From: Candidatus Woesearchaeota archaeon
Lineage (GTDB): Archaea; Nanobdellota; Nanobdellia; Woesearchaeales; UBA525
DNA: 14,886 bases
Direction of reading: 5' to 3'
Assembly: GCA_013331575.1 (NCBI GenBank)
Contig: DUGD01000006.1
Location: forward strand, 1-14,886
Of this stretch, positions 512-13,129 are shown piece after piece. The notes below the pieces were generated by a model. The model had not been told where the DNA came from, did no database searches, and saw nothing but the letters and a program-made list of their open reading frames with translations. Position 1 is the stretch's first letter; each line of letters starts with the position of its first letter. A program made the position numbers and the translations under genes.

Positions 512-1225
512 TTACTGGTGGAGTGGAGTATCGATGAGCAGCACGCGTGACGATACAGAAGCGACAACCCGCAAATTCTGTTCGCCAGAGACTGCCACGG
601 CGTCCTGCTTATGAATAATCTTGCCGTTGATATCCACCACACCATCGACCAAGAACACATAGACACCACGGCCTACTCCTGAATTCTTAACAGCATAATG
701 TACATCCTTGCCAGGATCGAGATTGCAAAAGAGCATACGCGCGTCCTGACGTAGCGTAAGCGCGCCATCTTCCCCCGAAGGATCGACGACGGCAATGAGC
801 GCGTTGCGTCTCATTGGAAGAGAACGTTCCGAGTAGCTCGGCGTATGATTTCGCTTGTCGGGCCGTATCCATATTTGAAGCAGATGTGTCAGGACATCCT
901 TGGAAATATTCCGTTCAGAATGGAGGACGCCGGTGCCCGCAGTCATGTGCTGCGCCTGTCCGGTCTTGATGATACCATGATTGCCCATACTATCACGGTG
1001 CTCGATAGCCCCGGAGAGCAGCACCGTGACAATCTCCATGTCATTATGCGAGTGCATCTCAAAACCTTTTCCGGGGAGGATATAATCCTCGTTAATGACG
1101 CGCAGCGCCCCGAAACCTAACCGTGAGGCATCGTAGAACTCGCCAAACGAGAACGAGTGATAACTCTCAAGCCAATCTGTTCGTGTCCGCCCCCGATCAC
1201 CCGCGGGATAGTACTGCATCGGCAT
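512..1225 (-). CDS. Pirin family protein (YhhW-like bicupin)
   Basis: The 237-residue protein has the two-cupin layout of the pirin family, close in length to E. coli YhhW (about 231). Seen features are the N-terminal WLESYHSFSFGEFYD and LRVINEDYILPGKGFEMHSHNDMEI blocks. The metal-binding residues fall where the family predicts: H58 and H60 in HSH, then H102 and E104 in GVLHSE. Family members are nuclear cofactors in eukaryotes, and some bacterial ones act as quercetin 2,3-dioxygenases; the substrate here cannot be told. The chosen ATG (1225) lies 3 bases after GAGGT; a second ATG two codons on (1219) has better spacing and is a real alternative. The gene sits between spt5 and rpl11, which is unusual in archaea, and pirins are often transferred between lineages. 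Function beyond the family level is inference. Confidence 0.93.
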   Translation of the reverse strand: MPMQYYPAGDRGRTRTDWLESYHSFSFGEFYDASRLGFGALRVINEDYILPGKGFEMHSHNDMEIVTVLLSGAIEHRDSMGNHGIIKTGQAQHMTAGTGVLHSERNISKDVLTHLLQIWIRPDKRNHTPSYSERSLPMRRNALIAVVDPSGEDGALTLRQDARMLFCNLDPGKDVHYAVKNSGVGRGVYVFLVDGVVDINGKIIHKQDAVAVSGEQNLRVVASVSSRVLLIDTPLHQ

Positions 1226-1379
1226 AGGACCTCTCGAGGCTGATCAGGTGATAAACGTTTTCCAGAATCGGCAGGCAAGGATACGGCTCTCGAATACGAG
1301 GTTCTACTCCTAGGACTGCGGAGCATTTTCTGCGCTTCGCAGCATGGTCTCGCCGCTCGCATAGTCGCTTCGCCTTCCT

Positions 1380-1459
1380 CCAGTCACTTCGTTCCGGAGT
1401 TCGCCCTCTTCGAGCGCGAACGGCTCGCGAACTCGCGGCTCGTATCTGCTCCAAGGCAG
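1380..1459. repeat. Dispersed intergenic hairpin repeat, copy 1
   Basis: This 80-base stretch matches 12877-12958. Shared blocks are CCAGTCA, TTCCGGAGTTCGCC, a GCGAAC arm, a GCTCG stretch and CCAAGGCAG at the end. It forms a hairpin of GTTCGC (1399-1404) with GCGAAC (1416-1421), then a C-C mismatch and an inner CTC/GAG stem (1406-1408 with 1412-1414) closing a TTC loop. A longer alternative pairing, GAGTTCGC (1397-1404) with GCGAACTC (1427-1434), exists only in this copy. No coding frame is shared between the copies. Confidence 0.7.
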
Positions 1460-1486
1460 TCTGTATTCACCAACTACAAACCGAAG

Positions 1487-1625: not shown

Positions 1626-2120
1626 TCACTCGTCGCGGCGGATGACTTTCACTGCATCCAGCTTGAGCGTGATGGGGATGGGCACTGCCGCCTCCAAGAG
1701 CTCGACGACGACCTCTTCCTTCGTCTTGTCCACGCGGCTGACCTTCGCGTTCTCGCGCTTGAAAGGACCGCTTATGATCTCGACGATGTCGTTCTTCTGG
1801 ATGTTGACGTCCTTCTTCACCTGCTCGAGCATGTGCTCGATCTCCTTGTACTGGATCTCGGCAGGGAGGATGCCCTTCGCGTAGGGAATGCCGAACGCTG
1901 ATTGCTCAGCGGCGACGGCGTCGGCCGCCTCGATGAAGATGTAGCCGCGCATGCCGTGCGGCGAGATGACCGCAGTGATGGGGATCTTCTTGCGCGCGGC
2001 ATTGCTCGCGACGAACGCAAGGACCTGGTCCTCGCGGTTGGCAGTGGTTCGCAGCGCGAAGATGTGCGTAGGCACCTCTGCGGGCGCGTCGGTGGGTTGT
2101 GTGGAATCAGTCTCGGTCAT
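1626..2120 (-). CDS. spt5: Transcription elongation factor Spt5 (NusG homologue)
   Basis: Spt5 pairs with Spt4 and clamps RNA polymerase closed during elongation. The 164-residue protein has an NGN domain at about residues 18-98 (THIFALRTTANREDQV at its start, then HGMRGYIFIEA and GIPYAKGILP) and a KOW domain at about 107-160 (IQKNDIVEIISGPFKRENAKV). The first 17 residues form an acidic Thr/Pro-rich extension that is probably disordered. The ATG at 2120 has GAGG about 9-10 bases upstream. It lies 74 bases after secE in the same direction, the usual archaeal secE-spt5 pairing. The next gene is not rpl11, as would be expected, but a repeat gap and pirin. A T-rich terminator follows directly. 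Length and domains are normal for an archaeal Spt5. Confidence 0.96.
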   Translation of the reverse strand: MTETDSTQPTDAPAEVPTHIFALRTTANREDQVLAFVASNAARKKIPITAVISPHGMRGYIFIEAADAVAAEQSAFGIPYAKGILPAEIQYKEIEHMLEQVKKDVNIQKNDIVEIISGPFKRENAKVSRVDKTKEEVVVELLEAAVPIPITLKLDAVKVIRRDE

Positions 2121-6879: not shown

Positions 6880-7422
6880 ATGCGCATCTACATCATAGGA
6901 AATGCTGGCTCGGGGAAAACTACGCTAGCACATATGCTAAGCAAGGAGTTTGATCTGCCGGTCTACAGCAAAGATGATATTCTCTACGCACGAAAATTTG
7001 ACATCACACGATCGAAAGAGGAACGCATCGCGATGCTCAGACCCATCGCCCGCAACCCAGATTGGATTATCGAAGGCGGCAGCGCGTTCTGGACGATATC
7101 AGCGATACAGCGCGCGGACATCATTATCGAGCTTAAGACGCATCGCGTCGTCTGCATCAGCCGCGCGCTCCGCCGTTCGGTCAGACGCGCATTCTCCAGA
7201 GACAGACCTCGCGAATCGATACGCGGAGTCTTTGAACTGTGCAAGTATATATGGGACGCAGAGCATCCGCGCAAAGAGCATGCGCAACGATATCGTAAGG
7301 TCATGCAGCACGCCAAAGGCCAGCACATACAAGTGAAGACGCCTGAAGACCTGGCGCTTGCCAAAGCGACGATGCACCTCATCCGCGCATCGAAGGTAGC
7401 TCCGAGGAAATCTTCTCGATGA
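6880..7422 (+). CDS. Small P-loop kinase, adenylate-kinase/FlaR-like (topology-modulation type)
   Basis: The 180-residue protein begins MRIYIIGNAGSGKTTLAHML with the Walker A loop at residues 7-15 (K13, T14). It continues with a YSKDDIL segment (29-35) and WIIEGG (62-67), in the positions seen in proteins annotated as 'DNA topology modulation' or adenylate-kinase-like kinases. An Arg-rich stretch (RALRRSVRRAFSRDRPRESIRG, about 95-116, of which this is a part) could serve as the LID region. The real substrate of this family is poorly known. It starts 13 bases after the thermosome stop and may be cotranscribed with it, though it lacks a clear ribosome-binding site. Its last codons overlap the left arm of the interlocked inverted repeats described separately. 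Confidence 0.75.
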   Translation: MRIYIIGNAGSGKTTLAHMLSKEFDLPVYSKDDILYARKFDITRSKEERIAMLRPIARNPDWIIEGGSAFWTISAIQRADIIIELKTHRVVCISRALRRSVRRAFSRDRPRESIRGVFELCKYIWDAEHPRKEHAQRYRKVMQHAKGQHIQVKTPEDLALAKATMHLIRASKVAPRKSSR

Positions 7423-7515
7423 AATGCAGTGGAGAACGCTATTCGTTGATATGAATCTATCTCCACTGCATACGGATAGCACGAATTGTTAGAGAAGATT
7501 AGTAGTGCTATCCGT
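7409..7515. repeat. Three interlocked perfect inverted repeats, pseudoknot-like
   Basis: Arm A AATCTTCTC (7409-7417) is complementary to A' GAGAAGATT (7492-7500). B ATGCAGTGGAGA (7424-7435) pairs with B' TCTCCACTGCAT (7460-7471), 12 bp with a 24-base loop. C ACGGATAGCAC (7472-7482) pairs with C' GTGCTATCCGT (7505-7515), 11 bp with a 22-base loop. B' and C are directly adjacent, so these stems could stack. A' lies inside the C loop, so A-A' and C-C' cross as in a pseudoknot. The element runs from the last codons of the kinase gene to just before a TATA box. It could be a structured RNA, a 3'-UTR element or a pair of operators. Confidence 0.7.
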
Positions 7516-7519
7516 TATA

Positions 7520-7528
7520 CTTAAATAC
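7520..7528 (+). promoter_or_regulatory. TATA box for the coiled-coil gene
   Basis: CTTAAATAC five bases beyond inverted-repeat arm C' predicts transcription from about 7549 with a leader of about 18 bases. The inverted repeat therefore sits where an upstream regulator of this promoter would bind. Confidence 0.55.
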
Positions 7529-7566
7529 TCCTCCTCGTAAGAAACAGGCATCATAGGGGTGAGGCA

Positions 7567-8187
7567 GTGCGATCGGACGATGAATATGAGTTGATGCCCC
7601 GTACGGAGCTCGAGTACCTGCGCAAGGAAGTGGAGAAGATAAAACGCAATCCGCTCGGTGACACGCAGGCCTCTATTACGCTTCTCGATTCCATGAGCAA
7701 GCTCAACATATCAGTCTCGCGGCTCAATGAGATATTCGAGGGTGCGAACGATGAGATGGTCAAAGCGTTCAATGAGACCGCTGTGCAAGAGCAACTGCGT
7801 AAGATGATGGAGCAGCAAGAGAAACTCGCTCGCGGTATCGTCGCGGTGGCAGAGATGGTCAAAGACCTTGAGAAGAAGATGAACACACCGCTCCCATCGC
7901 TCGATCAGATCGCACCGCCAAAAGCGCCAGTACAACCATCAGTGCAGATAAGCGAATCAGTCATCAAGACGGAATTGAACGCGTCACAGGATTCAAGCAT
8001 GCAGACGCGTAATCCGTTCGCATTCGATGGCAACAGCGCTCCGGCATACCAGCCTATACTCTCCAATCCGCTACCAAGACCGGGTGGAAACGCACCACCA
8101 CCGCAAGGCGGGATGACCCAACAGGCTCAACAACCCGGCCCCATACCCGATTCTGACATCCCACCGCCGCCGCCACGGCGGTTCTAG
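7567..8187 (+). CDS. Uncharacterised coiled-coil protein with a proline-rich tail
   Basis: The 206-residue protein divides into two halves. Residues about 11-105 are highly charged and helical with heptad-like spacing (LEYLRKEVEKIKR, then NEIFEGANDEMVKAFNETAVQEQL and LARGIVAVAEMVKDLEKKM), which suggests a coiled coil. Residues about 107-206 are Pro/Gln/Ser-rich and probably disordered, ending DIPPPPPPRRF. Similar short coiled-coil proteins with a polyproline-arginine end recur in DPANN genomes as I recall, but no function is known to me. It begins with GTG at 7567, chosen because GGGGTGAGG lies just upstream; an ATG at 7594 is possible but has no good ribosome-binding site. The next gene starts 36 bases on with a strong GGAGG site, so the two form an operon. 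There is no signal peptide or membrane segment. Confidence 0.85.
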   Translation: MRSDDEYELMPRTELEYLRKEVEKIKRNPLGDTQASITLLDSMSKLNISVSRLNEIFEGANDEMVKAFNETAVQEQLRKMMEQQEKLARGIVAVAEMVKDLEKKMNTPLPSLDQIAPPKAPVQPSVQISESVIKTELNASQDSSMQTRNPFAFDGNSAPAYQPILSNPLPRPGGNAPPPQGGMTQQAQQPGPIPDSDIPPPPPRRF

Positions 8188-8547: not shown

Positions 8548-8709
8548 TTACAAGTCTTTGGCCATGACGGTCTTGCGGCCGTTGCCCTCTGCGCGCTTCA
8601 CAGCCTCTTTCACGAGCGCTTCGACCTTCGCGTTGAGCGCGTCAGCGAAATCACCCGCGACATTGTATTCACCAGTAAGCTCTTTGATCTTGGCTTTCAC
8701 AACAATCAT
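8548..8709 (-). CDS. Single histone-fold protein, DUF1931-like (53 residues)
   Basis: The small frame begins MIVVKAKIKELTGEYN and ends GRKTVMAKDL followed by TAA. It contains AGDFADALNAKVEALVKEAVKRAEGNG, the long central helix of a histone fold, and the RKTVMAKDL segment that matches the loop and start of the last helix in archaeal histone and DUF1931 proteins. It probably binds DNA, or pairs with another histone-fold protein. It is shorter than classical archaeal histones (about 66 residues) because the last helix is cut down. The start is firm: GAGGTGG lies 4 bases before the ATG, and a TATA box about 48 bases before it. It is convergent with the coiled-coil operon. Whether it packs the chromosome or has a narrower role cannot be told. 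Confidence 0.85.
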   Translation of the reverse strand: MIVVKAKIKELTGEYNVAGDFADALNAKVEALVKEAVKRAEGNGRKTVMAKDL

Positions 8710-8754
8710 CGGACCACCTCAGGTACCATTCTACAGCGTTTTCAGCCGTTCTCC

Positions 8755-8763
8755 TATTTAAAC
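8755..8763 (-). promoter_or_regulatory. TATA box for the histone-fold gene
   Basis: GTTTAAATA on the minus strand predicts transcription from about 8733, a leader of about 24 bases that contains the GAGGTGG ribosome-binding site. Confidence 0.6.
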
Positions 8764-8782
8764 GTTGTCGTAAAATGAATGA

Positions 8783-8948
8783 CCCTGCCCTAAAGGGCGG
8801 GGTATCCTATGCGTCAACTTGATGAACGCGGAGCATCTAACTCACGCTCGGAAACGCCTTTGCGTTTCCGGCGTCCCGGGAACTTCGTTCCCGAGGACTC
8901 CGTTCCGTTAACATACGAAAAGTCGCCTGCATGAATCGGCGACTTTTC
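8783..8948. repeat. Cluster of four strong hairpins, possible IS200/IS605-type end
   Basis: Four hairpins lie in 166 bases: CCCTGCCC-TAAA-GGGCGGGG (8783-8802), CGGAAACGC-CTTT-GCGTTTCCG (8849-8870), GTCC plus CGGGAAC-TTC-GTTCCCG plus GGAC with one bulged A (8873-8898), and GAAAAGTCGCC with GGCGACTTTTC around a 10-base loop (8917-8948). On the minus strand the first reads CCCCGCCC-TTTA-GGGCAGGG then TCATTCA, which resembles the right-end hairpin of IS200/IS605 elements. The other stems would then be in the place of the TnpB-linked guide RNA. No transposase or TnpB frame is present, so at most this is a scar. Confidence 0.5.
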
Positions 8949-9196
8949 TGGAAAAACTCCAAGACGTTCACCCTCGAGCTGAAGCACGAGGTACTCCTAT
9001 ATTAACAGAGCACAAACTGCTCAATAACCGCTGTGGCCGCCTTGGCGGGGTTCTCGCAAGACACAGGAACGAACACGCAATAGGAAACACAGTGCTAACA
9101 ACGACGGCACTCCGCCGCGGCCACGAACAACCAGAACATAACAGATAACACACGCGCACACATCATAAGACGCCCCTTACGACACGCCTACAACGA
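8949..9196. other. Gene-free region between the hairpin cluster and gltX, with further pairing potential
   Basis: No convincing coding frame is present. The plus strand is rich in A and C. Complementary pairs are GAGCA/TGCTC (9008-9012 with 9018-9022), GTGGCCGC/GCGGCCAC (9033-9040 with 9117-9124), and AGTGC/GCACT (9091-9095 with 9107-9111) inside the latter. This nested arrangement could be a small structured RNA or more debris of a mobile element. No promoter is clear on either strand. Confidence 0.3.
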
Positions 9197-13057: not shown

Positions 13058-13129
13058 GGGCGCTTAGCTCAGCGGTAGAGCGTTCGCATGGCATGCGAAA
13101 GGTAGCGGGTTCGAATCCCGCACGGTCCA
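13058..13129 (+). tRNA. tRNA-Ala (anticodon GGC), with a defective acceptor stem
   Basis: All arms are present. The D arm is GCTC/GAGC (13067-13070, 13078-13081). The anticodon arm is TTCGC/GCGAA with loop ATGGCAT, anticodon GGC at 13090-13092. The variable loop is AGGTA and the T arm is GCGGG-TTCGAAT-CCCGC. The acceptor pair G3-U70 (13060 with 13126), the alanine identity mark, and discriminator A (13129) agree with tRNA-Ala reading GCC/GCU. In the acceptor stem, GGGCGCT against ACGGTCC leaves two adjacent mismatches: 5-68 is G-G and 6-67 is C-C. Swapping bases 13062-13063 from GC to CG would restore a full stem. CCA is not encoded. It may be functional, a decaying copy, or carry a sequence error. 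Confidence 0.92.

Follow-up and report, generated by a model that had tools for sequence, protein, structure and literature searches.

IS200/IS605-derived elements and REP/REPIN sequences carry hairpins at their ends, an internal arm of which may pair with the target, and IS200/IS605 insertion takes place without target duplication. Integron attC sites are mobile as a folded single strand, conserved in structure and variable in sequence. For prokaryotic MITEs, archaeal examples from Sulfolobus, Halobacterium, Haloquadratum and others are named in the part of the account considered here (PMC10969869). In the sponge mitochondrial elements, the corresponding excerpt describes conserved stems and variable loops and argues against tertiary contacts between the loops (PMC2800124).

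The locus described here lies in a 14,886-nt stretch of a Candidatus Woesearchaeota genome (the window), and our reading, to which we give a probability of about 0.78 from comparison of sequences, is that it holds a member of a family of ~92-bp non-coding, non-autonomous, MITE-like mobile elements of Woesearchaeota, the window copy of which would occupy positions 7427-7517. We know of no autonomous parent of this double-hairpin element. It resembles the IS200/IS605-derived and REP/REPIN sequences in its end hairpins and in a possible pairing between internal arm and target, but differs from them in its target duplication and in that its own genome has no Y1 match; with attC sites it would share a folded single strand that is mobile, variable in sequence and conserved in structure, but it consists of two separate hairpins and is scattered over contigs rather than gathered in cassette arrays. 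Like prokaryotic MITEs as described in PMC10969869, the element is short, non-coding, intergenic, AT-rich and multicopy in several genomes, with target duplication and with transcripts predicted to fold, whereas its short degenerate terminal repeats are each the outer arm of a hairpin of their own and compensatory substitutions preserve its fold over many genera, together with a loop-loop helix. The mitochondrial repetitive or double hairpin-forming elements are likewise short and intergenic, with double hairpins among them, and genome invasion has been suggested for them (PMC2800124); compared by description, they differ in that here stem changes are compensated and the loops change in concert. 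No published account of such an element was found among the papers listed by searches of the open-licence PMC literature, and the family has apparently not been described before.

The genome of origin comprises 1,625,642 bases and is 74.59% complete. Pfam matches in the window include FtsZ (closest named relative Candidatus Woesearchaeota, 84% identical), a thermosome-type chaperonin, a cytidylate-kinase-like protein and a Glu/Gln-type tRNA synthetase, and the sole Rfam match at the gathering score is a tRNA at 13058-13129. The features around the locus are as follows.

6880-7422, + strand: upstream kinase-like ORF, with Pfam P-loop matches below the curated cut-offs
7409-7417, + strand: arm A of the crossing pair, inside the kinase ORF and not part of the element
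7409-7417 with 7492-7500, + strand: crossing pair A:A', 9 bp, 74 nt between the arms
7424-7471, + strand: hairpin P1, arms 7424-7435/7460-7471 (12 bp), loop 7436-7459 (24 nt)
7425-7426, + strand: TG, presumed changed copy of the left TA border, from the family and the empty site in G002
7427-7517, + strand: putative mobile double-hairpin element, its probable extent taken between the border dinucleotides
7472-7515, + strand: hairpin P2, arms 7472-7482/7505-7515 (11 bp), loop 7483-7504 (22 nt)
7518-7519, + strand: right TA border, TA in 33/49 copies on that side
7520-7527, + strand: TATA-like CTTAAATA, putative promoter element for the downstream ORF, an identical string in the same place in G001, G002 and G003
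7567-8187, + strand: downstream ORF, termed coiled-coil in the preliminary description, conserved in the order (38/58 genomes)

The downstream ORF has no Pfam family. The kinase-like ORF is present in 7/58 genomes and stands directly 5' of the downstream ORF in its own genome and in one other, that of the congener G002, where the junction of the two genes is without the element and the stop codon of the kinase gene overlaps the TATA-like box. In the window, the kinase stop codon is at 7420-7422, with P1 starting one base later, and P2 ends at 7515, immediately 5' of TATACTTAAATA. A metagenomic relative of the kinase (73% identical) has the C-terminus APRESSRRLH where the window has APRKSSR, so the coding end beside the insertion varies between close relatives.

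The three perfect pairings reported in the preliminary description are exact, an inverted-repeat search returning just those three pairs, and its statement that the two hairpins are far beyond chance is borne out: when the 117-bp region was shuffled 3000 times with dinucleotides preserved, none of the shuffles held two perfect repeats of at least 11 bp and 9 held a single one. Some repeat of at least 9 bp with a spacer of at most 80 was present in 75 of these shuffles, which leaves the crossing pair weak when taken by itself. The arms are perfect and without a G-U pair, and the outermost pairs of P1 take in the border dinucleotide. Folded as RNA, the + strand reaches -42.3 kcal/mol (z -6.2) and the - strand a z of -6.1, with none of 200 shuffles as stable in either case. 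A single repeat of this kind is unremarkable in this genome, since the window and 40 further stretches sampled from it (499,527 unmasked bases) hold 12 other single perfect repeats of at least 11 bp with loops of 12-40; in the same material, the second-best case of neighbouring hairpins, both with long loops, has stems of 9 and 8 bp and falls within a long open frame. Archaeal terminators have a T-rich tract at the 3' end, and this candidate role was set aside, inspection by eye finding no run of five T immediately 3' of P1 or P2 on either of the two strands. An alternative fold in which loop 1 would bind the 5' arm of P2 was also rejected (ensemble probability 0, no conservation seen).

At the level of DNA similarity, the 191 bp around the site gave, outside its own genome and among 58 genomes, short matches only (best E 0.005) and no homologue of the hairpins, and both this search and the covariance models described below find a single copy in the own genome. 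A covariance model built from the window copy alone (R2) matched 2 of 19 genomes at E<=1, its own included, and found a full-length homologue in another place of the congener G002 (36.5 bits, E 1.6e-4). The two copies align without gaps over 99 columns and show compensated changes in both stems; the G002 copy has a fold z of -3.9 and adjoins a different ORF. With the two-sequence model made from them (R3), 35 of the order's 352 genomes gave a match at E<=1, and 33 still did so at E<=1e-3; among the 83 matches listed, of which at least two are reverse-strand readings overlapping another match, 65 reach E<=1e-3 and all span the whole model, with up to 11 copies per genome (G243). Within the nine genomes of its own family, R3 matched only the own genome and G002, under stricter filters, which lose weak matches. 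Forty-nine copies were examined, mostly the best-scoring rather than a random sample: 47 are among the 83 R3 matches and two came from fetched loci only (L186 1252-1346 and L192 1132-1229). Three loci (L170, L176, L181) were removed because they hold the copies already taken from L192, L199 and L205. Nine matches of lower significance (E 0.0006 to 0.06), mostly on the reverse strand, were excluded; one of these came back as L192 1132-1229. This last copy (-) lies 12 bp from another at 1022-1119 (+), the two belonging to different subfamilies and facing in opposite orientation. Rfam gave no match for 7350-7600 at E<=2, nor for 12 of 30 R3-match loci at E<=0.5. The arm pattern of stem 2 had the window as its sole match in the 352 genomes; in viral contigs, the stem 1 pattern and three family patterns (exact matching only) had none, and the one match of the stem 2 pattern (L102), inside a run of ACGGAT-like repeats, was judged a coincidence.

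The preliminary description had suggested that covarying pairs be sought in relatives, and the stems do covary, in support of its view of a structured element. In an alignment of 35 copies that was fitted to the structure, 91.8% of 693 stem pair cells are standard and 19 of 20 stem pairs are changed on both sides, comprising 10 of the 11 modelled pairs of P1 (94.0% of cells paired) and all nine of P2 (89.0%). The covariation score is 0.581 against 0.228 in shuffles, none of 500 shuffles reached any of five covariation measures, and sliding the partners by 1-3 columns left 38-51% of cells paired. An unfitted alignment of the 49 copies returned P1 only; by reading, the spacer between the hairpins varies by a base or so among subfamilies. 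Over the 49 copies, the 1078 stem cells include 1020 Watson-Crick, 35 G-U and 9 A-C, in a register chosen for pairing that scores G-U above A-C and with related copies counted repeatedly; the excess of G-U over A-C favours the shown strand as the one that folds. At pair 7/57 of the alignment (A8), which joins the P1 internal arm to the border dinucleotide, the counts are AU 26, UA 6, GC 2 and other 1.

The loops also appear to pair with each other, by a helix other than the one first proposed. In 31 copies, pairing between loops 1 and 2 is better within a copy than between copies, none of 5000 permutations reaching the observed mean. Because differences in base composition could inflate this result, within-copy shuffles were added, and over 27 non-redundant copies these gave a combined p of 3e-5, with 6 of 27 individually at p<0.05; the window copy gave p 0.58. 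With loops anchored on the stems, one register in 30 copies has 75% of cells paired and 24 two-sided changes, and none of 400 shuffles was as high. GCATA/TATGC and CGAAC/GTTCG are examples of this helix. Neither the window copy nor the G002 copy pairs in the family register. A loop pseudoknot is thus likely for the family, and in the window copy it would be absent or lost. The crossing pair A:A', described earlier as forming a pseudoknot, is not supported as part of the structure, arm A lying in the kinase ORF beyond the element edges and A' in a loop without conserved sequence. Two kissing pairs proposed from two sequences, AATCT/AGATT and ATCGCT/AGCGAT, were set aside because the family register differs; 71 of 20000 shuffled sets were as good.

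Mobility is indicated by the borders. Edges were taken from copies with unrelated flanks and from the empty site in G002, and the 5' edge of the window copy is placed by comparison with these, since neither the TA border nor the initial T of the element is intact there. Between its borders the element measures ~92 bp and has no coding capacity. In G243, G286 and G301, 20 stretches hold 21 copies with unrelated flanks, and copies of the same subfamily are nearly alike inside and unrelated outside. None of the 49 copies lies within a non-overlapping ORF of at least 80 aa, and some overlap an ORF end, by at most 79 nt. TA stands on both sides of 32 of the 49 copies (left 33/49, right 33/49), a feature that by itself cannot be told from element sequence. 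In copies of the NTT type, the base before equals the base after in 13 of 14, including 6 of 6 in which that base is not T, and the whole triplet is duplicated in 11 of 14. The terminal inverted repeats are short and degenerate, the 14-nt ends being 62% alike in inverted sense against 40% when shuffled. Likeness inside with unrelated flanks, intergenic position, and TA or duplicated NTT at the borders together point to a short non-coding mobile element, and dispersed sharp-edged copies, target duplication and terminal inverted repeats are features by which a MITE is recognized. Against this reading stand the single copy in the own genome, with its left TA border not intact; the lack of an autonomous partner there, where Y1 and TnpB zinc-ribbon families were searched; and the occurrence of a 3-bp duplication in one group and TA in another, which is unusual for one transposase.

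The borders also bear on what might move the element. Mobilization by a single-strand HUH/Y1 transposase, with the copies as IS200/IS605 derivatives or REP-like sequences and the hairpins as binding sites, would account for the two terminal hairpins of every copy, the strand asymmetry of the stem cells and the covariation of the P1 internal arm with the border dinucleotide at pair 7/57, which we take to be reminiscent of guide pairing. We consider it unlikely, as duplication of NTT in 11 of 14 copies conflicts with the lack of duplication that marks IS200/IS605 insertion, and the own genome, at 74.59% completeness, has no match to the Y1 transposase.

Much of the evidence for the fold would also be expected if the copies were a duplicated family of structured small-RNA genes, in which the function of the transcript, and not mobility, keeps the structure: the covariation of stems and loops is strong, G-U cells outnumber A-C, and the own genome and G002 each have a single copy with intact stems. 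Genes of this kind would fit poorly with borders made of TA or duplicated NTT, with a patchy presence (35/352 genomes) at up to 11 copies, and with flanks in which no promoter-like box was seen by eye at a constant distance, so that we hold this to be improbable.

In the window, the MITE-like element sits in what we take to be a promoter. The TATA-like CTTAAATA at 7520-7527 presumably serves the downstream ORF, and CGAAA just 5' of the box, which we take for a BRE, is found in G001, G002 and several family members and is absent in G003. Excising 7425-7517 restores GAAATACTTAAATA, as at the empty site of G002, and the joined host flanks (to 7424 and from 7518) read CTTCTCGATGAAATACTTAAATACTCCTCCTC, which scores 39 against the G002 promoter, where none of 500 shuffles exceeded 30, and matches it exactly over a block of 14 nt that spans the junction. 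The junctions 7424/7518 and 7425/7519 fit the empty site, and 7410/7518 and 7411/7519 fit equally because GAAAT occurs twice. At the left end, TG stands in place of the border TA and C in place of the element's initial T, and both changes are matched in the other P1 arm, P1 keeping its 12 perfect pairs. The empty site in G002 thus suggests that insertion separated the BRE-like from the TATA-like part of the promoter. Its target would have been a TA lying after the BRE-like GAAA and before the TATA-like CTTAAATA, with the element end CCGTTA set beside the TATA box, and a read-through transcript from the kinase would carry two strong hairpins. The insertion has probably altered the promoter of the downstream ORF and may have changed its expression.

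The position just upstream of the TATA box had been noted correctly in the preliminary description, and insertion at TA inside the promoter region explains it. There, with mobility not among the readings, it was taken as locus-specific, namely as a 3'-UTR pseudoknot, a small RNA or a pair of operators for the kinase or coiled-coil gene, for which its place between the kinase stop and the TATA box and the stability of the fold can be cited. We find this very improbable: homologues adjoin unrelated genes, A-A' falls outside the element, and none of 29 other loci upstream of the same gene has a like structure. A conserved structured leader before the coiled-coil gene was rejected on the same loci (30 of 38 matching loci read, 29 besides our own, none alike), where the lowest fold z was -3.8, at an AT-rich locus. 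The idea of two similar operators of that gene fails as well, given homologous copies beside unrelated genes with unrelated flanks. That the arms are functionless inverted copies from polymerase template switching, as their perfection without G-U in the window copy might suggest, is next to impossible, being refuted by compensatory covariation across the family, whose diverged homologues carry compensated arms.

Other repeats occur in the same genome. A second structured repeat, with the apical motif CTGCATRAATCGG, lies at 8818-8981 (+) of the window, with weaker instances at 1308-1473 (+) and 9023-9128 (-); its model, R1, scores 78.8, 24.8 and 18.7 bits on its window matches. The own genome holds the exact motif 24 times (control 0), and 19 copies give a three-way-junction consensus with variable, mostly paired stems. 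Many copies of the repeat run on into a longer one that includes another GC-rich hairpin. R1 matched 88 times in the own genome, 18 in G002, 47 in G003, 4 in G004, 54 in G006, 1 in G007 and 16 in G008, with 0 matches in G001, G005 and each of 10 genomes outside the family. Rfam gave no match above chance in 8700-9100. The double-hairpin element is distinct from this repeat, R1 having no match at 7409-7515. Short-loop double hairpins, which recall the mitochondrial double hairpin elements, are found in the window at 8848-8892 and elsewhere at L140 4381-4425 and 5481-5527, L085 664-713, L092 13132-13176, L097 9935-9978, and L101 1205-1248 and 16945-16998. They often read gcgc-[AAG..CTT]-gcgc-[AAG..CTT]-gcg, with stems that differ and are perfectly paired, and some are nested inside the CTGCATRAATCGG repeat. 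A recurrent hairpin, GACTGYCGTC..GACGRCAGTC, occurs five times in some 279 kb of the own genome (L087 15126-15159, L090 1297-1330, L091 5444-5477, L097 10024-10057 and 16285-16316). Upstream of the G002 copy of the double-hairpin element, at about 1650-1720 (-) of L161, TGATGATG..CTGA was seen by eye, which we take to resemble the C and D boxes of an archaeal guide RNA.

As to how the MITE-like element might move, a transposase acting in trans may be responsible, and selection would act on the folded strand, be it RNA or single-stranded DNA, in which both loops could also pair in most copies. The internal end of the P1 arm is TA in TA-inserted copies and mostly AA in TT-inserted ones, with one exception (L187, a TTT insertion with internal TA). 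We tentatively suggest that the element moves as a folded single strand, an enzyme reading the stems joined by kissing loops and the base of the P1 stem acting as a guide that pairs with the target, although we think this specific scheme rather unlikely. If true, it would represent a transposition, in DPANN archaea, that is read from structure, directed by pairing and accompanied by target duplication. The family would in any case be a widespread mobile element with a conserved fold in archaea for which our searches turned up no such description, and the window offers a concrete case in which an insertion may have parted the BRE-like from the TATA-like portion of an archaeal promoter region. 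With covarying stems and loops, the recognition of mobile DNA in these cells as a folded single strand becomes a testable idea.
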